Part shown: piece after piece, positions 16,465-53,300 of the stretch
Numbering within the stretch: position 1 is the first letter of the stretch
How the letters are laid out: every line of letters begins with the position of its first letter
Source of the DNA: a virus
DNA: 64,000 nt
Direction: 5' to 3' (one strand)
IMG/VR virus record: IMGVR_UViG_3300042566_000180
Span: 28,803-92,802 of that record
The notes under the pieces: model-generated
Told to the model about the DNA's origin: nothing
Databases searched by the model: none
What the model saw: the letters and a program-made list of their open reading frames with translations, nothing else
Translations under genes and position numbers: made by a program

Positions 16465-16824
16465 ATGAAGCTAAGCACCACGATAAATTTACCTACTTAT
16501 AGTTGTAAGATAATTATAAGTATAGTTGACAGTGTTGCTGCTGAAGCAGAGAAGATTTACAAGAAGTGCAAAATAAAAGATGATTTTGGTGATGAAGCAG
16601 AAGGAGCTTTGATTATGCATGATATAGATGTTTACTATTTATTACTAGGTGTTAAATATCTAACGCATAACACAATAGCTCACGAGATGTTTCACGCTGT
16701 AGTTAGAGTGACAGAAGATAGAGGAATATCAGATGAAGAAGCTCAAGCATGGTTAGCTGGACATTTAACCGCAGTGGTATATAAATTTTTAGAAAAGAAG
16801 AAGCTGGAAATAAAACATGGCTGA
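16465..16824 (+). CDS. Small HExxH zinc-metallopeptidase-like protein
   Basis: A 119-residue protein with a single clear HEMFH motif near residue 73, followed by a helix containing EDRGISDEEAQAWLAGHLT. The downstream acidic residue could act as third zinc ligand as in gluzincin-type peptidases. This is a minimal metallopeptidase fold seen in phage genomes. The gene lies between ring and muzzle genes and overlaps the muzzle start by eight bases, so it is probably made in step with it. It could process tail or cargo proteins during assembly, but the substrate is unknown. Confidence 0.65.
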   Translation: MKLSTTINLPTYSCKIIISIVDSVAAEAEKIYKKCKIKDDFGDEAEGALIMHDIDVYYLLLGVKYLTHNTIAHEMFHAVVRVTEDRGISDEEAQAWLAGHLTAVVYKFLEKKKLEIKHG

Positions 16825-33490: not shown

Positions 33491-36400
33491 ATGGCACAAT
33501 ACCTTCCTTATATACCAGAGACAATTCCTGAACCGGCTTTATATAAACCGGACTTTAACTTCTATGATAGAATGCTTCAAAGGAAGCAATCTATGTTTGA
33601 ACAAGGAGCTAGTAGAGTTAGATCTGCGTATACCTCAGTGCTTAACGCACCTCTTTCTAATAAGAATCTTATTCCTTTAAGAGATCAGTATATTAAAGAT
33701 GCACAAGAAAAGTTGACAAAACTTTCTTCATCTGATCTTTCTCTTATGGAAAATGTAAATGCTGCAGAACAAATCTTTTCTCCTTTTTGGCAGAACAAGT
33801 TTATGGTTCAAGACATTGCTATGACTAAGTCTTATCAGAATGAGATGCAGAAATATATGTCATGGAAAGATTCAGCTAAACCAGAAGAGCGTGAGAAGTA
33901 TAACAACATTGGTATGATGTATCTTCAAAACGGTTTAAGCAAACTTCAGAATGCTGAGTTAACACCTGAAGCGTTTGGTGCTATAGAAATGCGTAAAGCT
34001 GAACCGTTTACTAATATTGAAGCTTGGTTACAAAAACAAGCTAAAGATCAAGGTATGGATGTTAAGTATGATGATCCTAATGGACCATATTTAATTGAGA
34101 CTGTTAATGGACAGCGTTCTCAAAAGAAATATGCTACTTGGGCATCTGCTATGATTGGTAATAACTTTCAAGGTCAGTTTGAAATAACTGGTACTGTTGA
34201 GAATGAAGAGCGTGCTAAAATATTAAAACGTAATAATCCAAACCTTACAGAACCTGATATACAAAAACTAATTGCTAAAGATATTATATCAGAATTAAAT
34301 CAAGGATATACTAAAAGAAATCAAGAGATTGATGTAGAAGTAGCTAGAATTGATAGTTTGTTATCTTCAATAGGTCAGACAGGTGGTCCGAATAATCAAG
34401 CAATGTTTAATAAACTTGTTGAAGAACGTTCTGAATTAATGGGTAGAAAAGCTTCAATTGGTGAAGAGTATAAATATTTTGATAAAGAAAAAGGTAAAGT
34501 GGAAGAAGCTGTATTAGCTGCTCCAAAACAATATTTTAGTGTATTAGCTAAACAACGTCTTGTTAACAACTGGGCTACAGGTAGAGCTAGTATTGATCAA
34601 AAACTTATTAAAGAAAACGCTGCTTTTACAGCTGCACAAAGTCTTGAACTTAGAAGAGCTGAACATAACTTGGCAGTAAGTAATGCTGCATTTGATCAAT
34701 GGTATAAGACTGAAGACTTAAAGATAAAAGCTGCTAAAGGTGCTACAGGAACTGGCACAGGAACTGGTACTGGAACAGGTACAGGAACTAATGCTGATGG
34801 TACACCTGTACCTGGAGTAGATGAAAGTGGTTCATTAATTTATTCTGGTTTATCAGGTATAGATATTACTAAGACTGCTGAAACAGCTTTTGATATTTAT
34901 TCTAAAAATCAAAAGCAAGCTTTTCTTGATGCTCATAATTTGATCTTTGATCAAAAAGGTATTTTAGGTTTTGCATCAAAACTTGGATTAGATCCTGCAG
35001 AAATAGCACATGTAGCTACAGCTTTACAAACTGAGGTGGCTACTGATTATGCTCACAAGTTTACTAAAGAACAAGCAGCTGCTAGTAAAAAATTAGAAAC
35101 AGCCTTACTTAATAGTCAAGGTGTTAAAACTGCAGGTATAACTACTATAACTGGACCTGGTACATTAAGAAATGCTCTTATTGCATATGCTGGAGATTAT
35201 TTATCTGAACGTAGTAAGATAGCTGCTGATGGTTCTGATATAGCTTTAACTAATACTGAGTTTGAAGCTTTAATGAGATATTCTACAGCAGTAACTAAAT
35301 TAGATAGTTATAACGCTAACGAAGTTCAAAGAAAAAAACTTGTACAAGATAAACTTCAAAATGATCCAAAATATAAAGGATTATTAGTTGACGTAGGTAA
35401 TGGAGAAAAAGATTTAGTTACAGCTAGTAATTTAGCACCTAAGTTTAAAAGTTCATATGACTTTGAAGATGATGATGGTAATAAAGTTAAGTTAACAAGT
35501 GATGATTTAGCTAAAGCTTATGTTACAGGTAATATAACTGACTACGATCCTACATTTTTTCAAAATTTATCGTCTAGTGCAGCAGCACTTGGTGGAGGTG
35601 GAAATACTACAACATATGCTGGATATACTGTAAAAAAAGATGGTAAAGAATATCATTTGTATGGAAGATATAATTCAGGTATTGGTTATAGTAATAATTC
35701 AATTCCAGCAGGTTTGGAAGATTTAGGAAAAACTATTGGATCTTTAAACACCACATATAAGTCTTCTCAAGATCTTGTAAAGAATCTTAAAGCTGCTCAC
35801 GAGTCTGTTGTACCAGATCTTTTAATGTATAAGAACTTAACTGGTCAACAAGGTACTCTTTTTGCTTTAAACACAAAAGGTAATAAGACAATGGGTAATG
35901 GTGATAATGCAGCTTTGATAATTTATCAAGCTGTACAACCAGGAAATGTTCAGGATGTTTATGATAAAGATGGTAAACCTTTAGATCCTAGTATGATAAA
36001 AGGTATTCAAACTTTATTATCTAGTGAAAAGAACATTGAAGAATACGGTACTGGTCAGTATATACCTCAAGGCATTAATGGTAAAAAAACAATTAGATAT
36101 ATATTTAGTAAACCAATTTCAACTGAATCTAAAGATCAAGTTGCTGGAGTTGATTTAAGTAGTATAAGTTCAGGTACTGAAGTTAATTTTGTAGTTAAAG
36201 ATAATACTTCTGGTACTTATCTTGATCAGCTTCCAAATAATACTGGTTTCCAGGTTTATGATGCTATTACTAGAGGTAAGCAGATTAAATCTGACCCTAT
36301 ATTAGATGCTGCTGGATTTAGTTATACTATTACACCAAATGTCATGTCAGATAATGGTTCTGCTGTTCCACAATACGTTACTGTAGATTTAAAGTATAAA

Positions 36401-36673
36401 GTTGCAACTAATGTAAAAGATCCACAAACTGGACAATTAGTTAAAAAAGTGGAAGATAAATCGTATTTTCACACTATAAATTTACAAGGTGATAGTGCTA
36501 AATCTCCAGATGAAATTGTTTCATATCTTCAAAGTTTGTATCTTCAGAATATGAATAACAATAGAAATGTTCATTTAGAGTATCAAAAGTTTAACACAAC
36601 ACAAGCAAACGTTAATGTTTGGGACCCTAAAGCAGCATTAAAAGCAGTAGGTTTAGGTCATTTAATTAAGTAA
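33491..36673 (+). CDS. Large virion-associated protein preceding the RNA polymerase
   Basis: A 1060-residue protein starting MAQYLPYIPETIPEPALYKP. Residues 20-140 are helical and charged (RMLQRKQSMFEQGASRVRSAY), a start shared by packaged proteins next to the RNA polymerase in related phages. A Gly-Thr dipeptide run near residues 418-433 links the helical N-terminal part to a mixed alpha/beta C-terminal part. No catalytic motif is recognisable. It starts soon after promoter-like motif P4 and is followed after 21 bases by the giant polymerase gene, so both are probably co-packaged. It may act as scaffold or channel for ejection, which is inference from context. Confidence 0.6.
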   Translation: MAQYLPYIPETIPEPALYKPDFNFYDRMLQRKQSMFEQGASRVRSAYTSVLNAPLSNKNLIPLRDQYIKDAQEKLTKLSSSDLSLMENVNAAEQIFSPFWQNKFMVQDIAMTKSYQNEMQKYMSWKDSAKPEEREKYNNIGMMYLQNGLSKLQNAELTPEAFGAIEMRKAEPFTNIEAWLQKQAKDQGMDVKYDDPNGPYLIETVNGQRSQKKYATWASAMIGNNFQGQFEITGTVENEERAKILKRNNPNLTEPDIQKLIAKDIISELNQGYTKRNQEIDVEVARIDSLLSSIGQTGGPNNQAMFNKLVEERSELMGRKASIGEEYKYFDKEKGKVEEAVLAAPKQYFSVLAKQRLVNNWATGRASIDQKLIKENAAFTAAQSLELRRAEHNLAVSNAAFDQWYKTEDLKIKAAKGATGTGTGTGTGTGTGTNADGTPVPGVDESGSLIYSGLSGIDITKTAETAFDIYSKNQKQAFLDAHNLIFDQKGILGFASKLGLDPAEIAHVATALQTEVATDYAHKFTKEQAAASKKLETALLNSQGVKTAGITTITGPGTLRNALIAYAGDYLSERSKIAADGSDIALTNTEFEALMRYSTAVTKLDSYNANEVQRKKLVQDKLQNDPKYKGLLVDVGNGEKDLVTASNLAPKFKSSYDFEDDDGNKVKLTSDDLAKAYVTGNITDYDPTFFQNLSSSAAALGGGGNTTTYAGYTVKKDGKEYHLYGRYNSGIGYSNNSIPAGLEDLGKTIGSLNTTYKSSQDLVKNLKAAHESVVPDLLMYKNLTGQQGTLFALNTKGNKTMGNGDNAALIIYQAVQPGNVQDVYDKDGKPLDPSMIKGIQTLLSSEKNIEEYGTGQYIPQGINGKKTIRYIFSKPISTESKDQVAGVDLSSISSGTEVNFVVKDNTSGTYLDQLPNNTGFQVYDAITRGKQIKSDPILDAAGFSYTITPNVMSDNGSAVPQYVTVDLKYKVATNVKDPQTGQLVKKVEDKSYFHTINLQGDSAKSPDEIVSYLQSLYLQNMNNNRNVHLEYQKFNTTQANVNVWDPKAALKAVGLGHLIK
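34742..34789 (+). repeat. Gly-Thr dipeptide-coding repeat
   Basis: Alternating Thr and Gly codons (ACA/ACT and GGA/GGT/GGC) run through this segment of the 1060-residue gene. Codons vary, so the protein repeat has outlasted simple slippage. It is a flexible inter-domain linker and a possible site of length variation. Confidence 0.8.
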
Positions 36674-36694: not shown

Positions 36695-39600
36695 ATGGCA
36701 CTAGAAACTGGTGTAATACCTCAAGAATTACAAGGAGTTTATTCTCAAGATCCATTTCTTCCTTTACCAGAAACCAATACTAGTATGTTAGATTTACTAG
36801 CTCGTCCTAGTATTTCAGCACCTATATCTTCTGGTGTAGATATTGTACAAAGTGGTCTTGATGCTTTTAGTAGTTCACGAGCTACTATGAATAGATTAGC
36901 TGCTCCAAAGTTTTTTGATTATAATGCAGCTCAAGTAGATAGATATAAGAGTTCGGATAACTTTAATATATTAGGTTTTGATCCATCTGGTCAAACTAAT
37001 AATGAATATAAGTATGGAGCTCGTCAAACTTGGGGAGATATTTGGTCTAATGGTCTAAACGGTATGTTTAGATTAGCAGGTAATACTTATATTGAAGGAT
37101 GGAAAGGTTGGGCTAACTTAACAGATGCTATAGCAAGTAGTAGTTGGGATGAGGCTAAACAAGATTTATTAGGTACTCCAGAACAACTTTTAGAACAAGA
37201 TAAGATTACTAAAGACATTATGAATAGATATGCTATCTATTCAACACCTGAATCTGAAGAAGGTATATTCAACCGTAAGTTTTTTGGTGATATGTTACAG
37301 CAATCTGGTTTTGCTGTAGGAGCTATTGGTCAATTCTTAACAGAAGAGCTTATTACATTTGGTTTATCCACTGAGTTTTCAATAGCTAAGTTAGGTTTAA
37401 AAGCACCTTCTATTTTTGGTAAAGTTATTAGTAAAGCAGACATTGCTGCAGATTTAACTAGACTTGGTAGTCCAGTATGGAAATCTCGTTCAGTTGCCGA
37501 AGGTTTAGTACAAGGTGCTAGACAACTTGTACCTTTAGGTGATACTGCTTACACATTAAGTAAGTACGGTAAAGCTGGGGCAGGTATTGGACAAATGGCA
37601 GCTATTGGTGTAGGTGGTTTAAGACGTGCTTTATCTGAAGTTAATATGGCTACTACAGAAGCTCGTATGGAAGCTGCTGGTACATATGGAGAATTATATA
37701 ATAAGTTATATGATGAAGAACTTCAGAAAACAGGACAAGCTCCTAGTTTTGCTCAAGAAGAAAGAATGAAAGCTTCTGCACAAGCTGCAGCTCAAGATAA
37801 CTTTATGGTTAATACAGGTATCTTGATGTTAAGTAACCGCTTACAATTTGATAACTTATTTTCTAAGTTTGGAACTAGCCGTGGATTATTTGGTACTACC
37901 GGTGAATTTGCAGATGATGTATTAAAAGTAACTGGTAAACGTGTAGGTAAAGAAGCTGCAGAAGAAACTACTAAACTATATACAAAAGGTAAGTTAGGAA
38001 CATTAGGTTTAATTGGTCAGGTAGCTAGAGATTTTGGTGGTCGTACAGCTGCATGGCAAGCAACAAAGTCTTTAGGTAAGAATGTATTTAAATGGGAAGC
38101 AAGCGAAGGTCTTCAGGAATTGTTCCAAGAAGGTTCTAATATAGCTTTACAAGATTACTATTATGATTTGTACCACGGGTATAAGGGTACAACTATGGAT
38201 AAATCAATAGACAAAGCTATTGATGAGCAAGCTAACATTCAAGGTTTAAAGACCTTTTTAATGGGAGCTTTGACTGGAAGATTGTTATCTCCTATCAACT
38301 ATACAGTTGGTAAAACTAAAGAGTTTGCATCTACCACATCAGAGCAAAGAGCTACACGTTATAAAAATATTAATGAAGCTGTAAGAGAGGTTAATGCTTT
38401 CTATGAAAACCCTAATAAGTTTTTACCAGAGCATATAGCTAATATTAAAGTACAAAATAAGATTGCTAAGAACATGGAGGAAGCTGTTGCTAACAGAGAC
38501 CAATATGTTTTTAACAACAATAAGAACTCAGGTTTTGCTAAAATGATTTCTTCTGCTATCAAAACAGATATGGCAGGAGCAGTTCTTGACACATTACGTG
38601 GGTATGGTGAGACATTTAATGACGAAGAGTTTAAACAAGCTTTTGGCTTAGACAAAACTGCAGACAACATTAAATCAACCAAAGACTTTTTTAATAATAT
38701 TGCAAATGATGTAGAGACATTCCATAAGAATTGGAAAGCTCTTAAAGATAAATATGGTGACTCTGTACTAATTGATATGTACAAAGAGGGTACACCAGAG
38801 CGTAAGACTGCTTTAATGGCTAAGCGTGCGTTAGATGATGCTATTGAAATAATGGCTACTAATGATTACAAAGCTCATAAAGCAGCTCAGCGTGCTGTTC
38901 AGTTACAAACTGAAATGGCAGCTACACCACAAATTGGTGCTTCTGTGGGTACAGCGTTCCGTAATCTAGGTGTTATTCAAAACACACAGAAAGAAATTGA
39001 TATTCTTAAAGCTGAGATTGAAGCACTAGCTGCTAATCCTAAAAAGGATACTGCAACTAGAGAGCTTCTTAAATCTAAGAAAGAACAATTAAAATCTTTA
39101 GAAGAGTGGTTACAACACCATCAGGATCTTAAGAGTATGGAGCCTGGTCAGAAACGTAAGTTTAACAAGGCAGCTAAAAGTTTTGAGAAGTATGTTAATG
39201 CTAAGAACAAAGAGGCAGGTATTGATACTACTATAAAAGCGGATGACATTCAAGAAATCTATAAGAATCTTACTGAATATATTGATCTTAATAATGATGT
39301 TAAAGAGTATGTAGATGCTTATAACATTATGGCTAACCCTATTCAGTTTGTAAGGGTGCACCAAAGATTGATGGAATCTATTGACACTACTGGTAAAAAA
39401 CTTTTAGAAGAGCATTTAGAGGAAATTAAAAATGAGTTTGAAGGTAAGCCTCCGGTAGAAAGAAAAGATCCATTAGCTCCAACTGAACAGACTGAAGATG
39501 TACCAGATGGTCTTCCTGAAGGTGCTAAAGTAATAAATAAGAAAAACGGTATTTATCTTATAGAAGAAGAATACGAAGGTTCTAAGTTCTATTATATTTT

Positions 39601-42600
39601 AAATAGAAGAGGGGCTCCTGTAACAGAGCTAACGTTAGATGCTAAGAAGTTCCCATTATGGGAAGCTGCTAAAGCATATGAATCTTTAGAAGAAGTTACA
39701 ACTTATTTTGAAGCATTGGCAGAGCTTAATAAAGACGAGTATGCTGAGTATCAATTTGATGGTCAAACATTAAAGTTTGGTGATATTCTTGTAGATGCTA
39801 AAGGAAGAAAGTATAGAGTAATTACAAAGACTAAGCCTAAACTAATACAAGGTAAACCTAAGATTACTATTCAGCCTATGCAGGGTTCTGCAGCTACTCT
39901 TACTATTGAAAGTCTTGCTGGTTATAAACTAGAAAGTGCTTTTGAAGCTGCGTTACAACCAGAAAATCCTGACGCATTTAGACTAAAAAGAACTAATGAG
40001 CTTAATAGAATTTATGCTAAAAGAAATGAGGATGAAACTCAAGAGCAAGCTAATGCTAGATTAAGACAACTTATTTATACTACGTCTAAAGATGCTTTTC
40101 AGTCTGGTGTTACTATTAAGATTACTAAGAATCAAACTCTTGGTAATACAACTTTAGTTGGTAGTGAAGGTACAGATCAAAATAGACATCTACAGCAGAA
40201 CCCAGAACCATACAAGATTGAAATTGTATATGGTGGTGAGACTATTGGTTTTGTTACATACTATAATAGATACACATATTTAGATAATGCTGGTAAACCT
40301 ATTGCTTTAAGTAATATTACTAAAGACCAGTTTATACAAATTTTTGATCCTCAAAAGAAAGATGTTAATGAGGAGTTTAGAAAGTTTAAAGAAAGCTATG
40401 CTTCTGGTATGAAGTTATATAGTGCAATGACTAACCAGTTGTTAGGAGGTGCTACCGAAGTTACTTTAAACAATGAGGAGGTTAATGGCTTATTTAATGT
40501 TGTACCATCGGCTGGTGAATATGATTTTGCAGAAGAAGGTGATACAAGAGTTACTTTAGATGATTTAGATTACAGTACAATAGGTGGTTCTACTTATATC
40601 TATGATCGTAGAACTAAGTATTTAGGAAACGGAATGTATGAAGATGTTCCCAATGCTCCTATTACAGAGTCTCTTAATACTGAAGAACTAGAAAAAAGAA
40701 TTGAAGCTGCTAGATTTGAAGGCGGTGAAGATAAGCTTAGAAACTATGGTCGTTATGTAGCTGTAGTAGAATTACCTAACGGTAGTATTAAGTTTATAGA
40801 ATTACAACCAAGTGTTTATTCTACAGAAAGCTTTAATGATTTAGTACAAAGAATCAATGCTAAGTCTAAAGAAATTAAAGAAAACAATCTAGAAGAAAAG
40901 ACTGATCCAAAAACAGATAAAACTTATTTTGCTGCGGTTGATACTTCAGCAGCGGATGATATTAATAATGAGATTAATCAAACTATCTATGTAGCTGTAC
41001 CTGGTAGAAGAGGTTATAGAGTGAACATTGCTCTTAGTCCAACAGGTAATGTTAGAGTAGAGTTTGCAACATTTACAAAAGGTAGTAAGAATCCTCAGAG
41101 ATCTATTATAGTATTACAAGAGTCTGAATCTGATGGTAAAAAACCTTTAAACATAAAGGACAGCACTGACTTTATAGAAAGAATTAATCGTGCTATTGTA
41201 GATCATGATGCTAAATTTCCATATAAGATTGGTAATGTAAGATTAACTAAAAACAGTTTTAAAAATACTTTTTCTGAAAATGCTTCAGTTGATGAAGCTC
41301 GTCAGATGATTTCTGGTGTTAATCCAAGTATTGTAAAGAATGAAGGTATTTTTATATACCCTAAGAAACAACAAATTTCTCCATCTAGCAATGTTGTTAT
41401 TTCAGAAATGAGACCAGTACCTCAACAAGAGGAACCTACTGATGAAGAACTAGCTGGTATTAATCTACCTTCTGATATAGATACTGCACAAGCTGAAATG
41501 ATTGCTAAGCGTATAGCAGAGCAGGAAGAAAAAAAACGTAAAGAAGAGGAAGAACGTAAAGCTAAGCAACAGACTAAGAGTATTCAAGATCAGCTACAAG
41601 ATCTTAAAGATGAGAGATATGCTATAATTAGAGAAATTGGTGATGCTTTAAAAAAATCTGGAAAAACAAGACGTGAAGTAATGAGGCATAATTATGATGC
41701 TGAACCACGTGTAGCTGCAATTAATCAAGAAATTGCTAAGATTAATAATAGTGCTGCTCTTAAAGTTTCAGATAGACTTACTGGTCAAGACGTTGTACAT
41801 ATTAATGCATTTAAAAAATGGGCACAACAAAATCTTCCAGAGTTTATTTCTGTAGAAGAGTTAAATAATATTGCTCGTCAAATGAAAGTGGAGGGTGTTA
41901 CCGTTGGTATGTTCTACACTCATATGAATGAGTTAAATAATAAACTAGAAGGTAAGATTGCTGTAGGTAAAGATACACCGTTTAAATACCATGAAGCGTT
42001 TCATGCTGTATTCCGTATGTTACTTACTGATCAACAGATTGATAAGTACTTAAATATAGCTAAACAAGAACTTCGTCAACAAGGTAAGAGTATTGCTAAG
42101 CTTAAACAAGAGTTGCTAGCTACTAAACCTGAGTTTTACTCTAAGCTTACAGAAGAGCAATTAGAAGAGCGTGTATATGAAGAATACTTAGCTGATAAGT
42201 TTGATGCATGGAAGTCTGACGTTAAGACACCAACATCTGCAGAAAATAAAAGTTTTTTTAGAAGATTATTAGATTTCGTTAAGAACTTCTTTAAGCGTCT
42301 TAAAGCTTCTCCTTTAGATGATTTATTTCAGTCTATTGAGAAAGGTAATTATAGAAATGCTTCTTTAGCAAAGAATAGATTTACTACTGGTCCTAATATT
42401 GCTATTACACAAACAGCTTTAAAAGCTATTCAAATTGGAACTACTGTAATAGATAATGAAGATGGTGAAAGAGAATCTATTCCTATTTACTTAAGTCAAC
42501 AAGAAGGTGATATATTAGCTTCTACTATTGCTGCAGTATATCATAGACGTATGTCTGAAGCAGGTTTAACAATGCATAGTGAAGATGTTTTAGATACTGT

Positions 42601-45600
42601 TTTTGAAGATTATGCTAACTTATATGATAAAAATAATAATCCTTATTATGATTCAGATGAGTTTATTGATAGGTACGGAGACGATCCAGTAGCTTTACGC
42701 AAAGCTATAGAAAAATTAGATCAATTATTTGCTGTATTTTCAAATAAAGATTTTTTTAATGTTCTTAAAGTTGCTGTTATTGAACATACCCGTATCATGG
42801 GTTATCAGGAAGAGGTTGAATCTAATGACTTTGATGATAAAGTAGATGAGTATGGAGATAGAGTGACTACTGATAATTGGAAAGAAACTTATAGCATTGG
42901 TGGTTACGGTTCTTTATCTAAAGAACTACGTCAATATATATCTACTATTGTAGAAGAAACTACAGATGAATTTGGTAATACTAGATTTATATCTGAGGAT
43001 GGTTCTCCTACTGAAGAAGTACTAATTGAAGCTGTAAACGCAAACGTTCTTTATAATGGTATTCTTAAAGCGGTAGCTGGTTCTACAGATCAGTTTCAGA
43101 TGCTTGAGCGTTTAAGAATATTTGCTGAGAATAATCCAGAAGCTAGAAAGTTCTGGACTAAGTTTTCTAATGATGTCGATCTTCAATATGACGAAGATGG
43201 TAACTTCATAGATATTGGTAATAAGAATCAAGCTAATTTATTCCAAGCTGTTATAAAAGGTTTTAACCAATTCTCAGTAGATTACTACTTTATTAATAAA
43301 GATATTAGTAAAAAGGAAACTAGAGTTAGTGAAGCTAATCGTAAAGGTGCTGCTAGAAACCAGTTTTCTATTTGGTATAATGCATACCTAAGACTTTTTG
43401 TTGATCAGTATGAAAATGTATCAAAAGATTCTGAAAGTCTTTCTAGATTTATTAAATCTAAAACAGCTGCATTAGACAAGCTTGCTACCCTTTTAAAGAA
43501 AGGTAACACTTATAAGGAAAGTGTACTAGCTACTGAAATTGATAATATAGTATTATCTCTAAAAGATGAACTAGGTATATCATTATCTCCATTGTTTGTT
43601 AAGTATAGTTATTTATCTACTGTTGATACTAAAAAGTTAACAGCTAATGACTTAAGAATACTTAGAGCTTTTGAAGGTGTAGAGGTGATGACTGAGTCAG
43701 ATGCTAGAGAGATTGCATCTTCTATTAGAAGTGGTAAGAATCCTTTTGGTACAAATATTGACCCAGACAAACTTGCAGAATCTGAAGAGCAAGTGGCTAC
43801 ACTTACTGCTGCAGAAGAACCAAAGGTTATATCTGAGGAAGAATTTGAAGAACAAAGTGAAGATGTAGAGGATGATGTAGATGCTGCTATTGGTCGTTTG
43901 ACTAAGATAGCTGCTGGTAATGCTGTGTTTGATGAGCAAGTATCTTCTACTTCTTATAAGAATGCAGAAGGTGAATTAGTGTTTTCACATCAGTTACCAA
44001 CATACAACTTAGTAAGAGCTGCACAATTGCAGAGTGAAGAGTTCCGTCAAGAACTTAAAAAAGATAAGTTCTTAACTACTAACTACTTATTGAACAATCC
44101 GTTCTTTAACTATATTGCTGACGGTCTTAAGATTGCACGTATAGATGGTATTAAATCATCTAGCCTTACTAAAAATGAAGATGGTTCTTTAGTAGAAGAT
44201 AAGAGACTTAACGTAAACCAGAATGAAGGTATTACTTATGGCTCAATGTCTGACCGTGAATTCTTAATTAGTTTGTTTGATCTATATGCTAATAATAAAA
44301 AGCATGTTATTCCTGGTCAGGAAGGACAACCTACTAAGCAGTTTATGACTTCTTCAGTATTATTAGGAGTATTGGAAGCTTCTAACACAGGTGATATGTT
44401 AAACTTACCTGTAATCAGAGCTGTAGAATATAAGAGTGGTAAGATAGTTCTTACTAAAGAAGCTAAGGATATGTTGCTCAATGAAGTTAAACGTGAGTTT
44501 GACAGAATAGCTAGAGTGACCACTGAAATTAATAGTGGTAATTATTTAAATGGTATTATAGAAGGATACCATAATGGTGAAGAAAGAGGTCTTAAGTTTA
44601 TTAAGACTGGTAATATGCTTGGTAGTTTATTATCTACTTTAGAAGATGCTGCTAAAAACTTTGAAGATATATCACAATACAATGACCAAATTCTAAATGA
44701 AATTGAAAAGTATTGGTTAGCGGATGGCGGTAAACTTGATGAAATGATTACCGTTTTAAAAGAACAAAACGTAATTGGAGCAACCAAAGAAGATAAACTA
44801 GAGAATAGACTTCTTACTAATTATATTTTTAGAGGTTTTAAATCTGATAATAAAACTGATAAGGATAGAAATAAGATGCTTAATATGGTTGTAGATGCAC
44901 CTGAACATAATATAGCTCAGGTACTTATCAACAACTTTATTAATACATTATCAGCTAGACAATTGTTTATTGGAGATGCTGCTGAGAACTATAAAAACGA
45001 TGGTGGTATTGATGAGGTTAAGCGTAATAAAGGTTTGAATGGTTCTGGAGCATCTATTTCTAGTATTGTTACAGCATCTAACTTAGGCATTAATCATGCT
45101 AATACAAAGTCACATGTAGTTACAATTAATGATCCTCAATATAGAGGTAAGTATGCTGGTAAGAATAAAGAACAAGCAGATGCTCAAATGTGGATGTCTG
45201 TAAAATCTTTCCGCTATACATTGTTTGGACTTGGTAAACTTAATCAAGCTCAAGCTGACTTACTAGATAAAATTGAAAGAGGAGAAAGTGTATCTACAAA
45301 AGATATCTTTGGAGAGATATATAAAGATAAAAATGGAATATCTCGTACAAGAGGAGGTTCTGTTAGCTATAATGCTCAGACTAACTCTATTAAGCTTGTG
45401 TATAACGATGGTAAGAAGTATGTTAAGACTTCAGGTATTCTATTAAGTAAACAACTTACTTCTGTTGAAGAAGGTAATACTTGGGTAGCTAGACCAGGAT
45501 ATGAAGAGCTTCATACAATAAGAGAAAAGCTTGAGGCATATGAGTCAGCAAATGAAACTATTACATTTGCTATACCTAAGTCTGCTTCTAAAGGATATAA

Positions 45601-48600
45601 GACTAATATTGCTGCTGACCCTAATTCTATTTCAGATGAGAACTTTGTAGAACATGATAATAACTTCTGGAGACTTCAGTTAGAAAACCCTTCTAATAAG
45701 TTATTAATTACTGATCCTACTCAAGCTAAGCAGTTGATTATTGCAGAACAGTCAAGAGATCTTATAGTTAATTTCCAGGGTGAAGAGATGACTCTTGGTC
45801 AAGTAATTGATAACTATTTATCTGATACTGAACAACGTGTTAAGAATAACTACTTTGCGGCTCGTGATGAGATGTTTGATATTGAAGGTGCATTTAAAGA
45901 ACTTAAGAAGTCACTTAAACAATCTCAGATTACTCCTAAGCTTGGTAAGTTTTTAAATAAACAAGTTGAAACTCTTAAAGCTACAGGAGCTGACTCACAA
46001 CTTATTGAGTTCTTTACTCCTATTAAGAATGAGCAGACTGGTGAATATGTACCTAAGTATGATCTTAACCATCCTATCACTTTAGATAAGTTTACTCAGT
46101 TATTCTTAGCTTACTTTTCTAAAGGTGTTATGAGTGAAAAAACTCCAGGACACTCTTTAGCGTTAGCTTCTAACTACGGTATGAAGGTTGCTAAACGTGT
46201 AACAAGATTAGATGAGAACGGGCAACCTTTAAGCTGGGAAGTTATTACTAGACGCCAGTATGAAAAAGACAAAGCTTTATTAGCTCAAATTAAAGATGCT
46301 AAACGTTATAATAATAATCTAGATCGTGAGTTTGATGGTCTTAAAGTGGGTGATATCTACATAGATGATCTAAGACATAACGTTCCAGAGTTTGATGAAC
46401 AAGGTAATATTACTGGTTACTTTACAGAGTATATGATGCCTCCTCACTTTAGAGAAGACATGAACTTATATAATGAAGATGGATCTATTTCAGAAGCAGC
46501 TTTAAAATCTTTTGCAGTACGTATTCCTTCACAAGATAAGCACTCATTTGTAACCAGTAAGTTGGTTGATTTCTTACCTGCTTTCTACGGATCTACAGCA
46601 GTGTTTCCTCACGAGCTTATTGAAATATCTGGAGCTGACTTTGATATTGATAAGGTGTACATGCAAATTATGGACTTCTATCGTAAAGATGGAGAACGTA
46701 TACCTTATGGTACAGCTAAGACTAAAGACGGTAAGTTTACTGAGTATGTAATGTACTTGCAGTCAAGCAATAAGACTTTTAAAACAAAGCTTGCTCAACT
46801 TAGAGCTGAAGCTGTGAATGAAGAAACTTATAGTGATGAAGAGGGCGGTGTTTATCAAAGCTTTGAAGATCTAGCTAAAGACTTATTTAGTAGATCTCTA
46901 GACTCAATGATGATTGAGAGTGCTTTAAAAGAATTAGGATTACCTAGTAATGCAGATGAATATGCTAAAGCTGTAGAACAATATGGTGAACTTAACAATG
47001 GTGTACTTAACAACCGTATTCTTGAAGCTAAGATTAAGCTTCAAAACAATGATGGAGTTACTAAGTCTACAGAAGGAAAAGTTGCTTCTGCATTCCAAGT
47101 AGCTGAGGTACAACCACTTATAGATATTGTTAATAGCTTTATTGAAAGATTCCCAATACTAAGAGATGTGTTAGTAGAAACTGGATCTGATGTTGACTCT
47201 ATGATCGGTCAATACAAAGCTTTCAAAAATAATAAAGAAGGTGCTCGTAATATTGGACCAGCTGTAAACTCAATGCTAGTTTATGCCATTATGAATAGTT
47301 ATGGTAAACTAACTAGAGTTAGAGAAACAAACGGTAAAGGAGAAGAATTGTATGTATTAACTATAGATGGTCATAAGTTTAATAGTTATGAGTATAACAA
47401 AGCTTTCCAAAAACGTACAGAAATTGGTGATGGTGGTGCAGTAAGTGAGGTTGAAGGATACACAGGTGAGCGTATATTCTATCACATTTCTGCTATAGTA
47501 TCAGCTATGACGGATAACGCCAAAGAACGTTTGGCTGCACGTCTTGGATTGAATATTAATGCTGTAGGTGTAGTATCTAATATGGTTGCACTTGGTGTAC
47601 CTTTAGAAACAGCACTTATGTTTAACTTACAACCTTCTGTTCGTGAGTTTTATAAGCGTATCGCTGTAGCTTCTAAGAAGATTAAAACACCTCAAGAACA
47701 AGATTTAGTAAAAGCTAAGGTTGGTGAGGAACTTTTAGAAGAACTTTCTAATGAATTAGTAAAAGATTCTACTTTACCTGAAATTACAACAGAACTTTTG
47801 GAAAACAATATTAAGTCTGCTGGTTCTAACCCAGAAGCTAATGTTGCAATATTTAGTTCATTCTTAAATTTCTATAATCAAACATCTTACTATTCTGCTG
47901 TAGCTCAAGTACTTAAGTTATCTAAAGGTTTAGGTACAAGTAATGAAGCTATTGATGCTATTGAAGAGAAAGAAGAGATGCTTGGTTTAAATATGGATGA
48001 CTCTACATTCTCTGAAAGTAAATTACCATTTGATTTACGTCAAGTGCTTACAGGTAAAGATGCTTCTAAACCTCATCATAATATTACGGCTAACTATTTA
48101 AGAATTAAGAATCAGATTCAAGATCTTCAGAAAAGTATCTTTATGGAAAAGACATATATCTTCCAGAGATTTAAAGAAACTATTCTTAAAAATTTAAGAG
48201 TTAATTCTAAAGAAGCAGAAACCTTTAACGTTACACTAAAGCGTGATATCATTTCTTATTTAGGTATTAAAGCTTACATGCAGTATCTAAAAGTAAACGG
48301 TAAAGGTGCAAAGCTAGCCGGTTTAGATAATTCAATGATCTATGATGCAGAAGCAGTAGCTAGAGGAGATCAGTTTATGGATATTATTGATACTGTAAAA
48401 TCTATCAGACAACAACTTCCTAAAAACTACTTTGCTAATAAATTCTTAAACATTGTTCCTGTAAAACTATATGATGTTAACTCAGGTCAAGAATACTTTA
48501 ATGCTAAATCAAGAGGTGGTATTAACACTGTAGAGTCTAATACATGGGCTAAGCTTGGGCAGCACGAACAAAATCGTATTGAAGATAGCTTCTTAGAGAT

Positions 48601-50332
48601 ATATAGTAATCCAAAAACTAGATCTTTAGCTTACAATTTATTTAACTATCTTATAGTTAAAGATGGTGCTCAGTTTAAGAGTGGTAGTTTTATTAAGTTT
48701 ATTCCACCTGCAATGTTTAAAGAGTTGTTAGATTCTACAGGGGCAGCTCATCAACTTCTTAAGGAAGACTCTTTAGTTGGTAACACTGAAAAGTACAAAG
48801 AAATATTTGGTTCTACAGCTCCAGAAATGTTTAATGAGTTTACTTCTTTGTACACTACTAACATTAATAATACATTCAATATAACAAGAGTATTTGCTGG
48901 TAAGAAAGTAAATGCACAGGCTGAAAAAAATAAACCTAAAGGATATGTACCTGAAGTTATAATGCAGTCTGAAGATGAAACTATACTAGCTATTGACTTG
49001 TTTGGTGGAGTTCGTAAACCTGAACTCATGTTGTTGATTGATGAGTTTGGTAATGAATTTTATACTGAAGTACTTGAAAAAGGTAAGTTTGAGCAAAAGG
49101 ATTTAGATAAGTTAAACTATAATAAAGAAGTTTTAAAAGCTAATGGTTTTAAACTTACTAATCGTCCTGATGAACAAGGTAACAATAGATACTATATTGA
49201 ACTACCTTATACAGTTAAGATACTTACAGGTGAAAAAGGTGTAAATGAAAAAGCTACATATTATAAACTTAGAAGTGTAGCTAAGAAGGTAAGCACTGCT
49301 ACAGCTTTTTCAAGAACTACAAAGATTCTTAAAAGAGAAGATCTTCAGAAAAATCCAGGTACACTATATGTATTTGGTGATAATGATACAAGAAAAGGTT
49401 TAGGTGGGCAAGCTAAAGAGATGAGAGGTGAGCCTAATGCTATGGGTATTTCTACTAAGAAAGCTCCTAACATGGATGATTCTGCTTTCAAATCTGATGC
49501 TGATTTTGAAGAAAATGCACGTATAATTACTCAAGACATAGATGCTATTATAGCAGTATGGAACACTGGTAAGTATAACAAGTTAACTGTGCCTCCAATT
49601 GGTGTAGGTTTAGCTAAGCTTGCTGAAAAAGCTCCAAGAACTTGGGAATACTTAAACGCTGAGCTTAAGAGATTAGAAGAAGTAGTAACTCAATCTACTC
49701 CTATAGAAGGTGTTGGGTCATTTATTAAAAATGTAGGTGATACTATAGCACTAAGCAACACAGCTGTATATGAGAAATTTGAGCCTACTGGTTCTAGAAA
49801 ACAATGGAAGGTTGGTGGACTTACAGGTGAGATGCCTACTAACTTGGTACTTAGAAATAGAAAAGCTTCTAATAATAATAAGTTTAATCTTTCTGAAGCA
49901 GCTTTAGCTAAAGCAGAAATTGAACTAGATAATATTATCGGAAACTTTGATCCTTTAAGATTTAGTACTGAAGCTAGAGATCTGCAAGAAGATTGGGGAA
50001 TTACCTTCCAGATAGTAGGTAATAAACTTACCTTCTATAAAAAAGAAAACGGTAAAGATGTTAAGTATGACACTGAGATTACTGAACCAGCTGAGCTATT
50101 GCGTGTTCTAAAAGAGACTCGTCAAGAGCAGCCTGTTTCACCAAAAGCTATGAAAAATACTTTTAAAGCTACTGATGAATCTGAGGGAGAAATGCCTAAC
50201 TTTACCAATCCTGTACCAACTGACATAGACCCAGAAGAAGCTAAGAAGAACTTACAGAAGCTTCTAGCTGCTAAAAGAAGTGAACTACAGGAACGTAAAA
50301 AAGAAGATGACGCTGGTTGTAAAGGAGAATAA
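36695..50332 (+). CDS. Giant crAss-like virion RNA polymerase polyprotein
   Basis: A single uninterrupted 4545-residue frame. Near residue 3315 the motif SGADFDIDK supplies three aspartates (3315, 3317, 3319) like the DxDxD metal site of the double-psi beta-barrel RNA polymerases. The virion RNA polymerase gp66 of crAss-like phage phi14:2 (about 2,180 residues) has such a site. Upstream there is a Lys/Glu-rich coiled coil (about 1600-1690) followed by HEAFH (His1766, Glu1767, His1770), a zinc-peptidase motif. Residues about 4210-4320 (LYVFGDNDTRKGLGG, later PPIGVGLAKL) resemble a macro-type nucleotide-binding module. The N-terminal ~1,000 residues are helical, as in packaged proteins. It would be injected and transcribe early genes. 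It is about twice gp66 length, and processing into smaller chains is possible. Confidence 0.8.
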   Translation: MALETGVIPQELQGVYSQDPFLPLPETNTSMLDLLARPSISAPISSGVDIVQSGLDAFSSSRATMNRLAAPKFFDYNAAQVDRYKSSDNFNILGFDPSGQTNNEYKYGARQTWGDIWSNGLNGMFRLAGNTYIEGWKGWANLTDAIASSSWDEAKQDLLGTPEQLLEQDKITKDIMNRYAIYSTPESEEGIFNRKFFGDMLQQSGFAVGAIGQFLTEELITFGLSTEFSIAKLGLKAPSIFGKVISKADIAADLTRLGSPVWKSRSVAEGLVQGARQLVPLGDTAYTLSKYGKAGAGIGQMAAIGVGGLRRALSEVNMATTEARMEAAGTYGELYNKLYDEELQKTGQAPSFAQEERMKASAQAAAQDNFMVNTGILMLSNRLQFDNLFSKFGTSRGLFGTTGEFADDVLKVTGKRVGKEAAEETTKLYTKGKLGTLGLIGQVARDFGGRTAAWQATKSLGKNVFKWEASEGLQELFQEGSNIALQDYYYDLYHGYKGTTMDKSIDKAIDEQANIQGLKTFLMGALTGRLLSPINYTVGKTKEFASTTSEQRATRYKNINEAVREVNAFYENPNKFLPEHIANIKVQNKIAKNMEEAVANRDQYVFNNNKNSGFAKMISSAIKTDMAGAVLDTLRGYGETFNDEEFKQAFGLDKTADNIKSTKDFFNNIANDVETFHKNWKALKDKYGDSVLIDMYKEGTPERKTALMAKRALDDAIEIMATNDYKAHKAAQRAVQLQTEMAATPQIGASVGTAFRNLGVIQNTQKEIDILKAEIEALAANPKKDTATRELLKSKKEQLKSLEEWLQHHQDLKSMEPGQKRKFNKAAKSFEKYVNAKNKEAGIDTTIKADDIQEIYKNLTEYIDLNNDVKEYVDAYNIMANPIQFVRVHQRLMESIDTTGKKLLEEHLEEIKNEFEGKPPVERKDPLAPTEQTEDVPDGLPEGAKVINKKNGIYLIEEEYEGSKFYYILNRRGAPVTELTLDAKKFPLWEAAKAYESLEEVTTYFEALAELNKDEYAEYQFDGQTLKFGDILVDAKGRKYRVITKTKPKLIQGKPKITIQPMQGSAATLTIESLAGYKLESAFEAALQPENPDAFRLKRTNELNRIYAKRNEDETQEQANARLRQLIYTTSKDAFQSGVTIKITKNQTLGNTTLVGSEGTDQNRHLQQNPEPYKIEIVYGGETIGFVTYYNRYTYLDNAGKPIALSNITKDQFIQIFDPQKKDVNEEFRKFKESYASGMKLYSAMTNQLLGGATEVTLNNEEVNGLFNVVPSAGEYDFAEEGDTRVTLDDLDYSTIGGSTYIYDRRTKYLGNGMYEDVPNAPITESLNTEELEKRIEAARFEGGEDKLRNYGRYVAVVELPNGSIKFIELQPSVYSTESFNDLVQRINAKSKEIKENNLEEKTDPKTDKTYFAAVDTSAADDINNEINQTIYVAVPGRRGYRVNIALSPTGNVRVEFATFTKGSKNPQRSIIVLQESESDGKKPLNIKDSTDFIERINRAIVDHDAKFPYKIGNVRLTKNSFKNTFSENASVDEARQMISGVNPSIVKNEGIFIYPKKQQISPSSNVVISEMRPVPQQEEPTDEELAGINLPSDIDTAQAEMIAKRIAEQEEKKRKEEEERKAKQQTKSIQDQLQDLKDERYAIIREIGDALKKSGKTRREVMRHNYDAEPRVAAINQEIAKINNSAALKVSDRLTGQDVVHINAFKKWAQQNLPEFISVEELNNIARQMKVEGVTVGMFYTHMNELNNKLEGKIAVGKDTPFKYHEAFHAVFRMLLTDQQIDKYLNIAKQELRQQGKSIAKLKQELLATKPEFYSKLTEEQLEERVYEEYLADKFDAWKSDVKTPTSAENKSFFRRLLDFVKNFFKRLKASPLDDLFQSIEKGNYRNASLAKNRFTTGPNIAITQTALKAIQIGTTVIDNEDGERESIPIYLSQQEGDILASTIAAVYHRRMSEAGLTMHSEDVLDTVFEDYANLYDKNNNPYYDSDEFIDRYGDDPVALRKAIEKLDQLFAVFSNKDFFNVLKVAVIEHTRIMGYQEEVESNDFDDKVDEYGDRVTTDNWKETYSIGGYGSLSKELRQYISTIVEETTDEFGNTRFISEDGSPTEEVLIEAVNANVLYNGILKAVAGSTDQFQMLERLRIFAENNPEARKFWTKFSNDVDLQYDEDGNFIDIGNKNQANLFQAVIKGFNQFSVDYYFINKDISKKETRVSEANRKGAARNQFSIWYNAYLRLFVDQYENVSKDSESLSRFIKSKTAALDKLATLLKKGNTYKESVLATEIDNIVLSLKDELGISLSPLFVKYSYLSTVDTKKLTANDLRILRAFEGVEVMTESDAREIASSIRSGKNPFGTNIDPDKLAESEEQVATLTAAEEPKVISEEEFEEQSEDVEDDVDAAIGRLTKIAAGNAVFDEQVSSTSYKNAEGELVFSHQLPTYNLVRAAQLQSEEFRQELKKDKFLTTNYLLNNPFFNYIADGLKIARIDGIKSSSLTKNEDGSLVEDKRLNVNQNEGITYGSMSDREFLISLFDLYANNKKHVIPGQEGQPTKQFMTSSVLLGVLEASNTGDMLNLPVIRAVEYKSGKIVLTKEAKDMLLNEVKREFDRIARVTTEINSGNYLNGIIEGYHNGEERGLKFIKTGNMLGSLLSTLEDAAKNFEDISQYNDQILNEIEKYWLADGGKLDEMITVLKEQNVIGATKEDKLENRLLTNYIFRGFKSDNKTDKDRNKMLNMVVDAPEHNIAQVLINNFINTLSARQLFIGDAAENYKNDGGIDEVKRNKGLNGSGASISSIVTASNLGINHANTKSHVVTINDPQYRGKYAGKNKEQADAQMWMSVKSFRYTLFGLGKLNQAQADLLDKIERGESVSTKDIFGEIYKDKNGISRTRGGSVSYNAQTNSIKLVYNDGKKYVKTSGILLSKQLTSVEEGNTWVARPGYEELHTIREKLEAYESANETITFAIPKSASKGYKTNIAADPNSISDENFVEHDNNFWRLQLENPSNKLLITDPTQAKQLIIAEQSRDLIVNFQGEEMTLGQVIDNYLSDTEQRVKNNYFAARDEMFDIEGAFKELKKSLKQSQITPKLGKFLNKQVETLKATGADSQLIEFFTPIKNEQTGEYVPKYDLNHPITLDKFTQLFLAYFSKGVMSEKTPGHSLALASNYGMKVAKRVTRLDENGQPLSWEVITRRQYEKDKALLAQIKDAKRYNNNLDREFDGLKVGDIYIDDLRHNVPEFDEQGNITGYFTEYMMPPHFREDMNLYNEDGSISEAALKSFAVRIPSQDKHSFVTSKLVDFLPAFYGSTAVFPHELIEISGADFDIDKVYMQIMDFYRKDGERIPYGTAKTKDGKFTEYVMYLQSSNKTFKTKLAQLRAEAVNEETYSDEEGGVYQSFEDLAKDLFSRSLDSMMIESALKELGLPSNADEYAKAVEQYGELNNGVLNNRILEAKIKLQNNDGVTKSTEGKVASAFQVAEVQPLIDIVNSFIERFPILRDVLVETGSDVDSMIGQYKAFKNNKEGARNIGPAVNSMLVYAIMNSYGKLTRVRETNGKGEELYVLTIDGHKFNSYEYNKAFQKRTEIGDGGAVSEVEGYTGERIFYHISAIVSAMTDNAKERLAARLGLNINAVGVVSNMVALGVPLETALMFNLQPSVREFYKRIAVASKKIKTPQEQDLVKAKVGEELLEELSNELVKDSTLPEITTELLENNIKSAGSNPEANVAIFSSFLNFYNQTSYYSAVAQVLKLSKGLGTSNEAIDAIEEKEEMLGLNMDDSTFSESKLPFDLRQVLTGKDASKPHHNITANYLRIKNQIQDLQKSIFMEKTYIFQRFKETILKNLRVNSKEAETFNVTLKRDIISYLGIKAYMQYLKVNGKGAKLAGLDNSMIYDAEAVARGDQFMDIIDTVKSIRQQLPKNYFANKFLNIVPVKLYDVNSGQEYFNAKSRGGINTVESNTWAKLGQHEQNRIEDSFLEIYSNPKTRSLAYNLFNYLIVKDGAQFKSGSFIKFIPPAMFKELLDSTGAAHQLLKEDSLVGNTEKYKEIFGSTAPEMFNEFTSLYTTNINNTFNITRVFAGKKVNAQAEKNKPKGYVPEVIMQSEDETILAIDLFGGVRKPELMLLIDEFGNEFYTEVLEKGKFEQKDLDKLNYNKEVLKANGFKLTNRPDEQGNNRYYIELPYTVKILTGEKGVNEKATYYKLRSVAKKVSTATAFSRTTKILKREDLQKNPGTLYVFGDNDTRKGLGGQAKEMRGEPNAMGISTKKAPNMDDSAFKSDADFEENARIITQDIDAIIAVWNTGKYNKLTVPPIGVGLAKLAEKAPRTWEYLNAELKRLEEVVTQSTPIEGVGSFIKNVGDTIALSNTAVYEKFEPTGSRKQWKVGGLTGEMPTNLVLRNRKASNNNKFNLSEAALAKAEIELDNIIGNFDPLRFSTEARDLQEDWGITFQIVGNKLTFYKKENGKDVKYDTEITEPAELLRVLKETRQEQPVSPKAMKNTFKATDESEGEMPNFTNPVPTDIDPEEAKKNLQKLLAAKRSELQERKKEDDAGCKGE

Positions 50333-50357: not shown

Positions 50358-53300
50358 ATGGCTTGTAAAATATTTAGAAATGATGAAGGTAAAGTTGTAG
50401 CAGTTAAAGCTCCTAACGGTGAGGAGTCTAGACTATACAATGATATTATATCATTACCAGAAGTAGCTAAAGATCAAGAGTTAGCTGTAGATATGTATCT
50501 ACTTGCATACACCCCGTCTTTTAAATCCTACTTTGGAGACTTTGAAGCTGGGGAAGCTAAAGGTTTAGTAGATAGTAATAACGAGCCGTTTATAAGTTCA
50601 GTTAGAAAGTTTTTAGGATCTGAACCAGTAGTAGAAACTCCTACAGCTGTAATACCTCAAGTGCCTGTAGATATTGAAACAGCTACCAAGATGCTTGATA
50701 GACTTAAAGAAAGATTTGGTGTTGATTATCAAGTAGTTAATGAACCTAATTCTGAATGGAAAGCTAAGTTTCAAAACGGTAAGGTGTATATTAACTCTGC
50801 TAAAGAGATAACTAAAGATACTCCGTTTCATGAGTATCTACATCCATTCATCAGTGTACTAAAGACAGATAATAAGTCTTTATATGATAAGCTAATGAAA
50901 GAGCTTCAGTCTATAGAGGAAGGATTATCTGAGATTGAGAATGTTAAAGCTACAGAAGGATATAGTAATCTATCTGAAGAAGATCAAATGGATGAAGCTT
51001 TGATTAGCTATCTTGGTAAACTAGCTGCAGGTAATATGACCGATGCTGGTAATATAGAAGATAGTCAAGTTAGTAGAGTGAGACTTTCTATGATGACCCA
51101 GTTTAAAAACTGGTTACGTAGAATGTTTAATAAAGTGTTTAGTATTAAGATATCTGATTTAGAACTAAACTATAACTTACAAGACATTGCTGATATGATT
51201 AGCTTGTCTGAAAGTAAGATAGATCTTACTGGTATGCCGGTATCAGTTAAACCATTGTATCAGTTAGATGAACGTACTAGAACTTTTAAGAATCGTATTA
51301 GACAATTAGGAAACGATCTTCAGAAGCGTATAGTAGATGATATCTATTTTGAACCTAAAGCTGGTCAAGAAGACCCAGGACGTGTAATTCTAGAAGAAAA
51401 AAATCACGTGTATGTACATACAAGTACAGGTCAAACATATAAGTCTGTAACTACAGCTATCAAAGGTAAGCTTGATGATCCAGAAGGGATGTTTGAACTT
51501 AACCGTTTGTTTGGATCTCAATTTGATCAGACTCTTCAAGACATTATTGAAGGTAAAACTTTTGATCAGGCTAAACAGAGTATGAGTGGTATTATATCAG
51601 AAGATATCTCAAGAAGAGCTTATGATGCTTTACAGGGATATTTTATTGGTGTAATGTCAGATGGCTCTATTATACTACCACAAGTAGTTTTGTCTGATGC
51701 ACAAAGTGGTATAGCAGGATCTCTAGATATATTTATTGTTAAACCTAACGGTGATATATTTATTACAGATCTAAAGGTTTCTAAGAACAGTTATAAGAGT
51801 GATAACTATCGTAACAAAAAGTTTCCAGTAGGGGAAGAGTCAGTACTGGAAGGACCTCTAACTACACAGCAACAGCATGGTATACAAGTTGCTACTTACA
51901 AAAGACTTGCTGAAGTTAACGGATTTCCTGTTAAGGGAATTCAAACTCTTCATATTAAGTTGTCTATAGAAGGTTTGGGTAAAGAACAAAAAGTTACAGA
52001 CTTTGAGTGGGAAGGTATACAAACTCACCAACCAAGTGCTAACGTATCTTTTGTAGATCAGATTGTTAAGACTAAAGGTGGTAGAAGTAAAGTTAAAGGA
52101 TACAAGAAAGCTTTAGGTTTAAATAACCCTGCTAATGATGAAGACTTTTTAACAGCTGAGGAAGAAATGCCTGAAGAGGATATTCCTGGAGATATGTTAG
52201 ATAAGCTTCAAGCAACTATTAAAACCTTTGTAGATAAGCTACGCCAACGTGAGATATATTTAAAAGATCTAGCTAAGTCTAGAAGATTTGAATCTTTTTC
52301 AGAAGAGAGTCGTGAGCAGAGCGTTGATAAAGTTTCTGAGTTATTATCTTCTATTGAGATGAAAGATGCTGGTAGACCAGATATTTCATTTGGTAGATTA
52401 CTTAACTATACTAAGTCTACGTTATCAAGTATGTATAAGTATATTACTGATCCATCTAAGGTTGGTAATCCAGGATATATAGACGTAATATTAGAAGCTG
52501 AAAAATTCGTTGAATCTTATAGAGGACTTGCATCTGTTCCTGAATTAGGATTAGGATCACAAGAGCAGTTAAAGCTTATGCGTGAGGTACAAAGTTTACT
52601 TAACGCTGTAAAAGATGAAATCAATCCAGCTTTAGAAGCATATGTTAAGGATTTGATTTCTAAAAAATCTAATGCTTCTCTAACAGAAGAAGAACTTACC
52701 AAGATCCTTAAAGAAGGTTTTGATATTAGTTTAGATCAATATGCTTTAGGTGATCTTCAGAATAGTAAAGAAAGACTCTTAGCTATAGCAGCTAATCTAT
52801 ATACGGAAGCTAATCAAAAAGCTATGAACCGTACAGATGAATTTATAATCAAGATTAAATCTATAGGTAATAAATTAGCTGCAGCTTTTGGAGGTAAGAT
52901 TGACTTTTCATTCATGCTTAACTACGACAAAGACGGCAACTTTAGTGGTAGATATTTACAAGCTATAGGTCAAAAGTATTATGATCTTAAAAAAGAAATT
53001 TACGGTCTTTTAAGAGATGATAAGGGAGAAAAGATGGAATACATTCTTATTGAAAATCTTGAAGATGCTAAAGGTGAGGATGTATTATATAATATTGAAC
53101 TTCAAAGACGTAAAGATAAAGTAAGAAAGTTTAGAGAAGCTGAACAACTAGATGCTAATAATAATATTACTAGTGGAGAGTATCATAGATATTCTAGTGA
53201 GTTTATAAATGAGCGTGCTATGTATGAGATGCCTCATGGTCCTTCTGCTAAACGTGGAATACTATCATGGGTTAAAAAATCTACAGTTACAGATGAAGCT

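Follow-up and report, generated by a model that had tools for sequence, protein, structure and literature searches.

How does cargo of several megadaltons leave a phage particle through a channel narrower than its folded proteins, and in what order? In crAss001 the cargo has to be unfolded at least in part (PMC10172136). The question is raised by the locus described here, in which a giant reading frame of 4545 aa (36695..50332) is followed by a second one of 1718 aa (50358..55514), both on the forward strand, as are the other features of the window whose positions are given below with two dots (start..end). It lies in a 64-kb stretch (64,000 nucleotides, hereafter the window) of a 92,802-base IMG/VR viral contig. 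Matches to the tail ring protein CrAss_Ring_1 (ring protein 1, 15568..16461; PF24228, E=2.4e-12) and, 5' of the window on the same contig, to the Crass_capsid major capsid protein (E=7e-31) place the phage among the crAss-like phages. The gene of the giant comes after those of the ring, of a large virion structural protein of 1680 aa that is probably the muzzle (16817..21859; phrog_37948, E=4e-70), and of two presumed cargo proteins, one C1-like by position only (677 aa, 31399..33432) and one a Cys-free, C2-like ejection or cargo protein (1060 aa, 33491..36673) by the gene order shared with cr4_1 and cr130_1; the muzzle and cargo assignments are partly positional. The 1718-aa chain stands at the position of phi14:2 gp65 and crAss001 gp49, its N-terminus is similar to that of the latter, and the order of the block matches cr4_1, cr125_1 and cr130_1. 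Two further frames lie in this region. Between the gene of the large structural protein and those of the presumed cargo proteins, a 2117-aa ORF (21863-28216) has IHELTH at residue 1645 as well as DUF5872, a segment like an L-Ala-D-Glu peptidase and a cluster of six Cys. A Cys-free ORF of 586 aa (29617-31377) has a weak peptidase/endolysin-like segment (phrog_32486, phrog_16241) and may encode a cell-wall enzyme that belongs to the entry apparatus.

An initial annotation, made from the letters of the window, had described the giant as one uninterrupted frame with HEAFH at residues 1766-1770 and DFDID at 3315-3319, and this proved correct. The frame is intact at full length in the relatives L003 (4545 aa) and L005 (4512 aa, about 81% identical) and still open where the contig ends in L004 and L006, which rules out an artefact. 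Compared with L005, dN/dS was 0.18 for the whole giant, 0.09 for the zincin, 0.13 for the RNA polymerase (RNAP) core and 0.11 for a C-terminal domain, DUF7831; these low values indicate that all three modules are maintained.

Searched against PDB as a single sequence, the whole 4545-aa chain gave no match, and family profiles were required. We made an RNAP profile from ten family members, leaving out phi14:2 gp66, and found that its best PDB match was gp66 itself (6VR4, residues 817-1686, E=6.9e-110), while the second-best, bacterial RNAP beta', reached E=0.02. Since the profile was made without gp66, this test of family identity is not circular. The aligned core covers residues 2669-3735 of the giant (44699..47899) and includes the DFDID catalytic motif (46637..46651); K2767, D2773, K2776, R2777, K2911, K2966, R3276, P3278 and DFDxD are invariant in 12 aligned family members. 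Judged by this profile match, the 4545-aa ORF is a Crassvirales virion RNA polymerase of the gp66 family, as the initial annotation had proposed. Presence in the virion and RNAP activity are known for its homologues in phi14:2 and crAss001, and the giant would, like phi14:2 gp66, be packaged in the virion, leave it ahead of the genome and transcribe early genes. Its chain would be laid out as an N-terminal cargo region, a zincin, a gp66-type single-chain RNAP core and an accessory DUF7831. The N-terminal 2299 aa gave no match in a phage BLAST search, being too diverged to be placed by BLAST.

The zincin-like domain occupies residues 1706-1900 (41810..42394), with the HEAFH codons at 41990..42004 and a probable third ligand in EEYLAD (1829-1834). 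YHEAFH and the downstream EExxA (EExxAD) are invariant in 50 relatives. The best PDB matches of the family profile were mostly PPEP/Zmp1 at a marginal E=0.03, the one to Zmp1, a Pro-Pro endopeptidase of C. difficile, aligning on both ligand motifs; a structure model was of low confidence (pLDDT 70) and had no PDB match. The zinc-peptidase-type motif pointed out at first reading is thus upheld, and the module is a likely peptidase. It is not new to the group, as p-crAssphage gp45 is already annotated as 'RNAP associated protein fused to zincin protease'. A second HExxH (FHEYLH, residue 158) is present in the 1718-aa chain, and such a motif in the third-part chain is common to phi14:2 gp65, cr4_1, cr125_1 and cr130_1. 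N4 vRNAP also bears HExxH, in its CTD (PMC12633501).

Is so long a fusion exceptional? The initial annotation had taken it to be so, rightly noting that phi14:2 gp66 (2180 aa) is about half as long. However, the same zincin-RNAP chain is published for Suoliviridae (cr109_1, 4328 aa; cr4_1, 4491; cr125_1, 4502; cr130_1, 5801), where HEAFH or HEAWH is separated from DFDxD by 1431-1587 residues with TAG read as sense; the spacing in the window giant is 1549. Further, we retrieved by RNAP or zincin queries 76 deduplicated IMG/VR giants with a complete 3' end, and in 73 of them zincin and RNAP share one ORF. The longest single ORFs among IMG/VR giants reach 5897 aa, and a review puts the upper reach at ~6000 aa (PMC10136315). 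Elsewhere the block is divided differently: Intestiviridae and Crevaviridae split it after the zincin and fuse the RNAP to the third part (4070-4417 aa), and Steigviridae encode it as three proteins. The 4545-aa ORF therefore adds one more member to an established family and carries DUF7831 as an accessory. Neither its size nor the zincin nor the fusion of domains is unusual in the group; what surprises is a pattern of terminal cysteines.

That first reading had missed that the giant contains one Cys, residue 4542, three residues from its C-terminus (DAGC-KGE; codon at 50318..50320), and that the sole Cys of the following 1718-aa chain is residue 3 (MACKIF; 50364..50366). The 1680-aa structural protein of the same phage has 22. 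In the aligned C-terminal tails of 62 giants a Cys is invariant at the very end. Across Crassvirales, a split in the RNAP chain is flanked by a Cys at the end of the upstream part and by M-x(1-3)-C at the start of the downstream part, and the outer ends and fused junctions have, as a rule, no terminal Cys. In phi14:2, gp67 has one Cys (1797 of 1797), gp66 two (3 and 2179 of 2180) and gp65 one (3). In crAss001, gp47 has one (2339 of 2341), gp50 three (5, 1334 and 2404 of 2412) and gp49 one (5). The rule is likewise followed by p-crAssphage (gp45 ending SFSCM, gp44 starting MSCGN), DAC15 (KECLE / MSKTC...NKIC / MSKC), FpV4 (KNCN / MACTV), cr109_1 (FICNL / MYKC) and the three chains of environmental locus L240 (...VRC / MACTY...DDC / MKCSV...), and by crAss002 if gp33 starts at MSCTPSN, residue 33. 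Many members share a C-P-N-x-N-like motif at the N-terminus after the Cys. From the arrangement in isolates it follows that the order of the chains in the block is zincin part, RNAP part, third part. The first chains of crAss001 (gp47) and DAC15 (DAC15_61) are encoded on the strand opposite to the other two, which shows that the rule acts on proteins and excludes translational coupling, frameshifting or coupling at the DNA level as its source. Strict Cys depletion is not universal, since cr130_1, cr125_1, cr4_1, cr109_1 and p-crAssphage have several internal Cys; the terminal pair alone is kept.

We found no description of this pattern in the literature searched, which did not extend to Drobysheva 2021 and Yutin 2018. 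Terminal cysteines are also useful for correcting gene starts and for working out the order of the chains in metagenomes. The annotated starts of crAss002 gp33 (L272 11088) and cr110_1 gp40 (L016 11029) are apparently too early, and an internal MSC start, at residues 33 and 15, respectively, fits the family. The Flavobacterium phage FpV4 (L270 4081-16944), whose record carries no Crassvirales listing, encodes an RNAP-like giant of 4287 aa whose one Cys is residue 4286; the following chain starts MAC. Two thioredoxin-like genes stand beside the RNAP block of p-crAssphage (L269 24978-25256 and 25976-26245) and would become relevant if the chains were linked by disulfides.

We counted junctions in environmental relatives, whose sequences are related and not independent. 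Eighty deduplicated giants were followed by an ORF; 79 of them had a Cys within nine residues of the C-terminus, and in 78 the following ORF had one in its first eight residues; 67 had no further Cys, and Cys made up ~0.01% of residues elsewhere. As controls, the outer ends had Cys in 5/68 first-chain N-termini and 4/32 next-chain C-termini, and of the latter four two are followed by a further chain, starting MKC in L240 and MSC in L033. In a larger set, which also took in Steigviridae- and Intestiviridae-type loci, 139 of 149 junctions between the RNAP and the next chain had Cys on both sides, the ten deviating ones being mostly cases where the RNAP is the last chain or mobile-element-like ORFs lie between. 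Control pairs of unrelated neighbours had both in 3/111, and these three are apparently pairs from the RNAP block that the HMM missed. At the junction with the preceding ORF, both Cys were present in 50 cases, neither in 98 and only one in 5, and here the pair depends on where the chain is split: with the zincin fused to the RNAP the upstream junction lacked it in 90/92, and with the zincin on a separate ORF both Cys were there in 48/61. The eight 'neither' cases counted with a separate zincin are mostly long ORFs (about 2900-5000 aa), whose zincin the search probably just failed to recognise.

Chance, or inheritance without function in a Cys-poor proteome, could be invoked, as family members share descent and contain few Cys. 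However, the pattern tracks the position of the split at three different junctions in different families, persists between sequences just ~20% identical, and involves both sides together (139+50 junctions with both against 8 one-sided), while other virion proteins of the same phage, such as the structural protein mentioned above, are rich in Cys. We consider this explanation extremely improbable. Given the shared ancestry of the sequences, the Fisher value for these counts cannot be read as a probability, and the weight rests on the three junctions, the ~20% identity and the occurrence on both strands.

The simplest reading is a heterotypic pairing of C-terminal with N-terminal Cys, since same-end dimers would leave the Cys-free outer ends unexplained. 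We infer that the two cysteines touch, that they are covalently linked and that the link serves ejection. We take the giant to be the first of the two chains that make up a Crassvirales virion RNA polymerase; its Cys4542 and Cys3 of the 1718-aa chain would join the two head to tail, most simply by a disulfide formed in the mature virion. The linked polypeptides would be drawn through the narrow tail as one thread, serially and in fixed order, and reduction in the host cytoplasm would uncouple them and free the subunits. We lean somewhat towards this model. The bacterial cytoplasm, where virions are assembled, is reducing, and a disulfide would therefore have to form late. It would suit the particle, since the virion is extracellular and its tail already has disulfides, as seen in crAss001 (PMC10172136); no disulfide between cargo proteins has been reported for any crAss phage, but these proteins were mostly unresolved. 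The Cys depletion has a parallel in N4 vRNAP, which was reported to be Cys-free; its authors link this to ejection, proposing that a chain with cysteines would pass less easily through tail or periplasm (PMC3715699, PMC3915230); as a single chain, it needs no coupler.

The main rival to the disulfide is a shared metal site, that is, a non-covalent dock (e.g. metal with His/Asp) that would hold the RNAP subunits together in the cell without a disulfide and without taking part in ejection. The presence of one Cys on either side of every junction is compatible with such sharing, gp66 belongs to a Zn/Mg-type RNAP family, and the C-P-N-x-N-like motif follows the N-terminal Cys. However, a typical zinc site needs four ligands and we noticed no conserved second ligand pair near either end, the cysteines lie 0-9 residues from disordered-looking ends, and a metal site does not require the depletion of Cys elsewhere in the chains. 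We regard it as fairly unlikely.

Generalised from the disulfide-linked pair, the proposal would be that Crassvirales rejoin their ejected RNAP polypeptides via one terminal Cys pair per gene break, forming a redox-labile train of nearly Cys-free chains that comes apart in the cytoplasm; as each cut gains a coupler, the division of the chain into genes could drift freely. To this broader claim we give an even chance. If true, a coupler at each gene break would explain the ordered, processive ejection of separate polypeptides, and also the free fusion and fission of the giant genes and the avoidance of Cys within the chains. The proposal is directly testable in the cultured phages phi14:2, crAss001, DAC15 and FpV4.

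The same rule bears on the suggestion, made in the initial annotation, that the zincin cleaves the giant, before its ejection or in the course of it, into separate virion chains. Its HEAFH with the conserved downstream EExxAD and the strong purifying selection on it agree with such an activity, and the same parts are separate genes in other members. However, the ends of separate genes bear cysteines and the fused junction does not, so that self-cleavage of a fused giant would leave ends without couplers; the rule thus argues against cleavage before ejection, and fused chains seem meant to stay joined. Moreover, the chains of crAss001 are already separate, yet the zincin is kept (HEAFH at 2157 of gp47), the 1718-aa chain has its own HExxH, and no cleavage site was identified in the giant. 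Self-processing before ejection is unsupported by these data, and we judge zincin cleavage of the giant improbable.

Known systems share these features in part. Steigviridae phi14:2 has, in gp66 (6VR4), gp65 and gp67, a homologous RNAP core with DFDID, the same zincin/RNAP/third-chain order and the same terminal cysteines, but its first and third parts are separate from the 2180-aa gp66 and it lacks DUF7831. The giant also resembles cr130_1 gp79 (Suoliviridae, Oafivirinae), with HEAFH at 2642, DFDID at 4229, DUF7831 near the C-terminus, a terminal Cys at 5797 and a next chain starting MNAFC; cr130_1 gp79 differs in its length (5801 aa), in TAG as a sense codon, in an extra NADAR domain and in its 26 cysteines. 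In p-crAssphage (Carjivirus) the zincin-bearing gp45 and its junction with gp44, with Cys on both sides, are shared, whereas the split comes after the zincin and the RNAP is fused to the third part. N4-type vRNAPs (Schitoviridae) are, according to the literature, giant (~3500 aa), ejected, Cys-free and equipped with HExxH in the CTD, but have an unrelated T7-type polymerase fold, a single chain and no terminal coupler. The virion RNAP of P23-45 is also giant, related to cellular RNAPs and carried in the tail (PMC10770324), but fused to the tape measure. Polyvalent proteins of phages and conjugative elements are large, virion-delivered chains of several domains, zincin and ADP-ribose-related ones among them; unlike them, the window giant is built on an RNAP.

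A C-terminal 'macro-like' domain had also been described in the giant. There is indeed a conserved domain at residues 4209-4322 (49319..49660), but it is DUF7831 (Pfam PF25176, E=1.4e-35, 122 bits against a Pfam cut-off of 27). Ten DUF7831 members were compared with the Macro model of Pfam and none matched it at a threshold as lax as E<=10, and a PDB sequence-profile search gave no macro match. An AF2 model from 50 homologues (pLDDT 89.4) found nothing in PDB by fold at E<=0.001, and its 50 best hits included no macro domain. In a viral structure library it retrieved DUF7831 of giant viruses, of Caulobacter and Rhizobium phages and of the crAss phages cr130_1, cr131_1 and cr272_1, followed only by weak, non-significant fold neighbours, dual-specificity phosphatases. 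These searches give no grounds for calling it a macro domain, and the label should be dropped.

DUF7831 is carried by just 11 of the 76 giants, which marks it as accessory; besides it, the C-tails of 62 RNAPs gave only single weak matches to known domains. It is mobile, occurring as a stand-alone gene, within other large proteins or on the RNAP, mostly C-terminally and, in L106 and L232, N-terminally of the core, and this double placement suggests repeated, independent capture. A NADAR domain directly precedes it in cr130_1 (L007 13777-31182; E=3.9e-7, below the Pfam cut-off), and another lies at the N-terminus of the cr126_1 RNAP (residues 62-189, E=1.7e-13; L273 7266-14474). In three of six annotated neighbourhoods (L022, L026 and L028), the stand-alone gene is near RtcB RNA ligase, RNA 2'-phosphotransferase or nicotinamide phosphoribosyltransferase. 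From this context an ADP-ribose-related role is plausible. A more specific reading, in which the polymerase brings DUF7831 along as a macro-like counter-defence module that processes ADP-ribose, would draw on the NADAR domains, these neighbours and the repeated capture; it has against it the failed macro searches, the phosphatase-like fold neighbours and the rarity of the domain among giants, and we hold it possible, though on balance doubtful. DUF7831 also occurs in large phage proteins without an RNAP motif, of 4818 aa (L035 4862-19315), 4037 aa (L045 6320-18430) and ~1035-1080 aa (L040 2621-5725 and similar).
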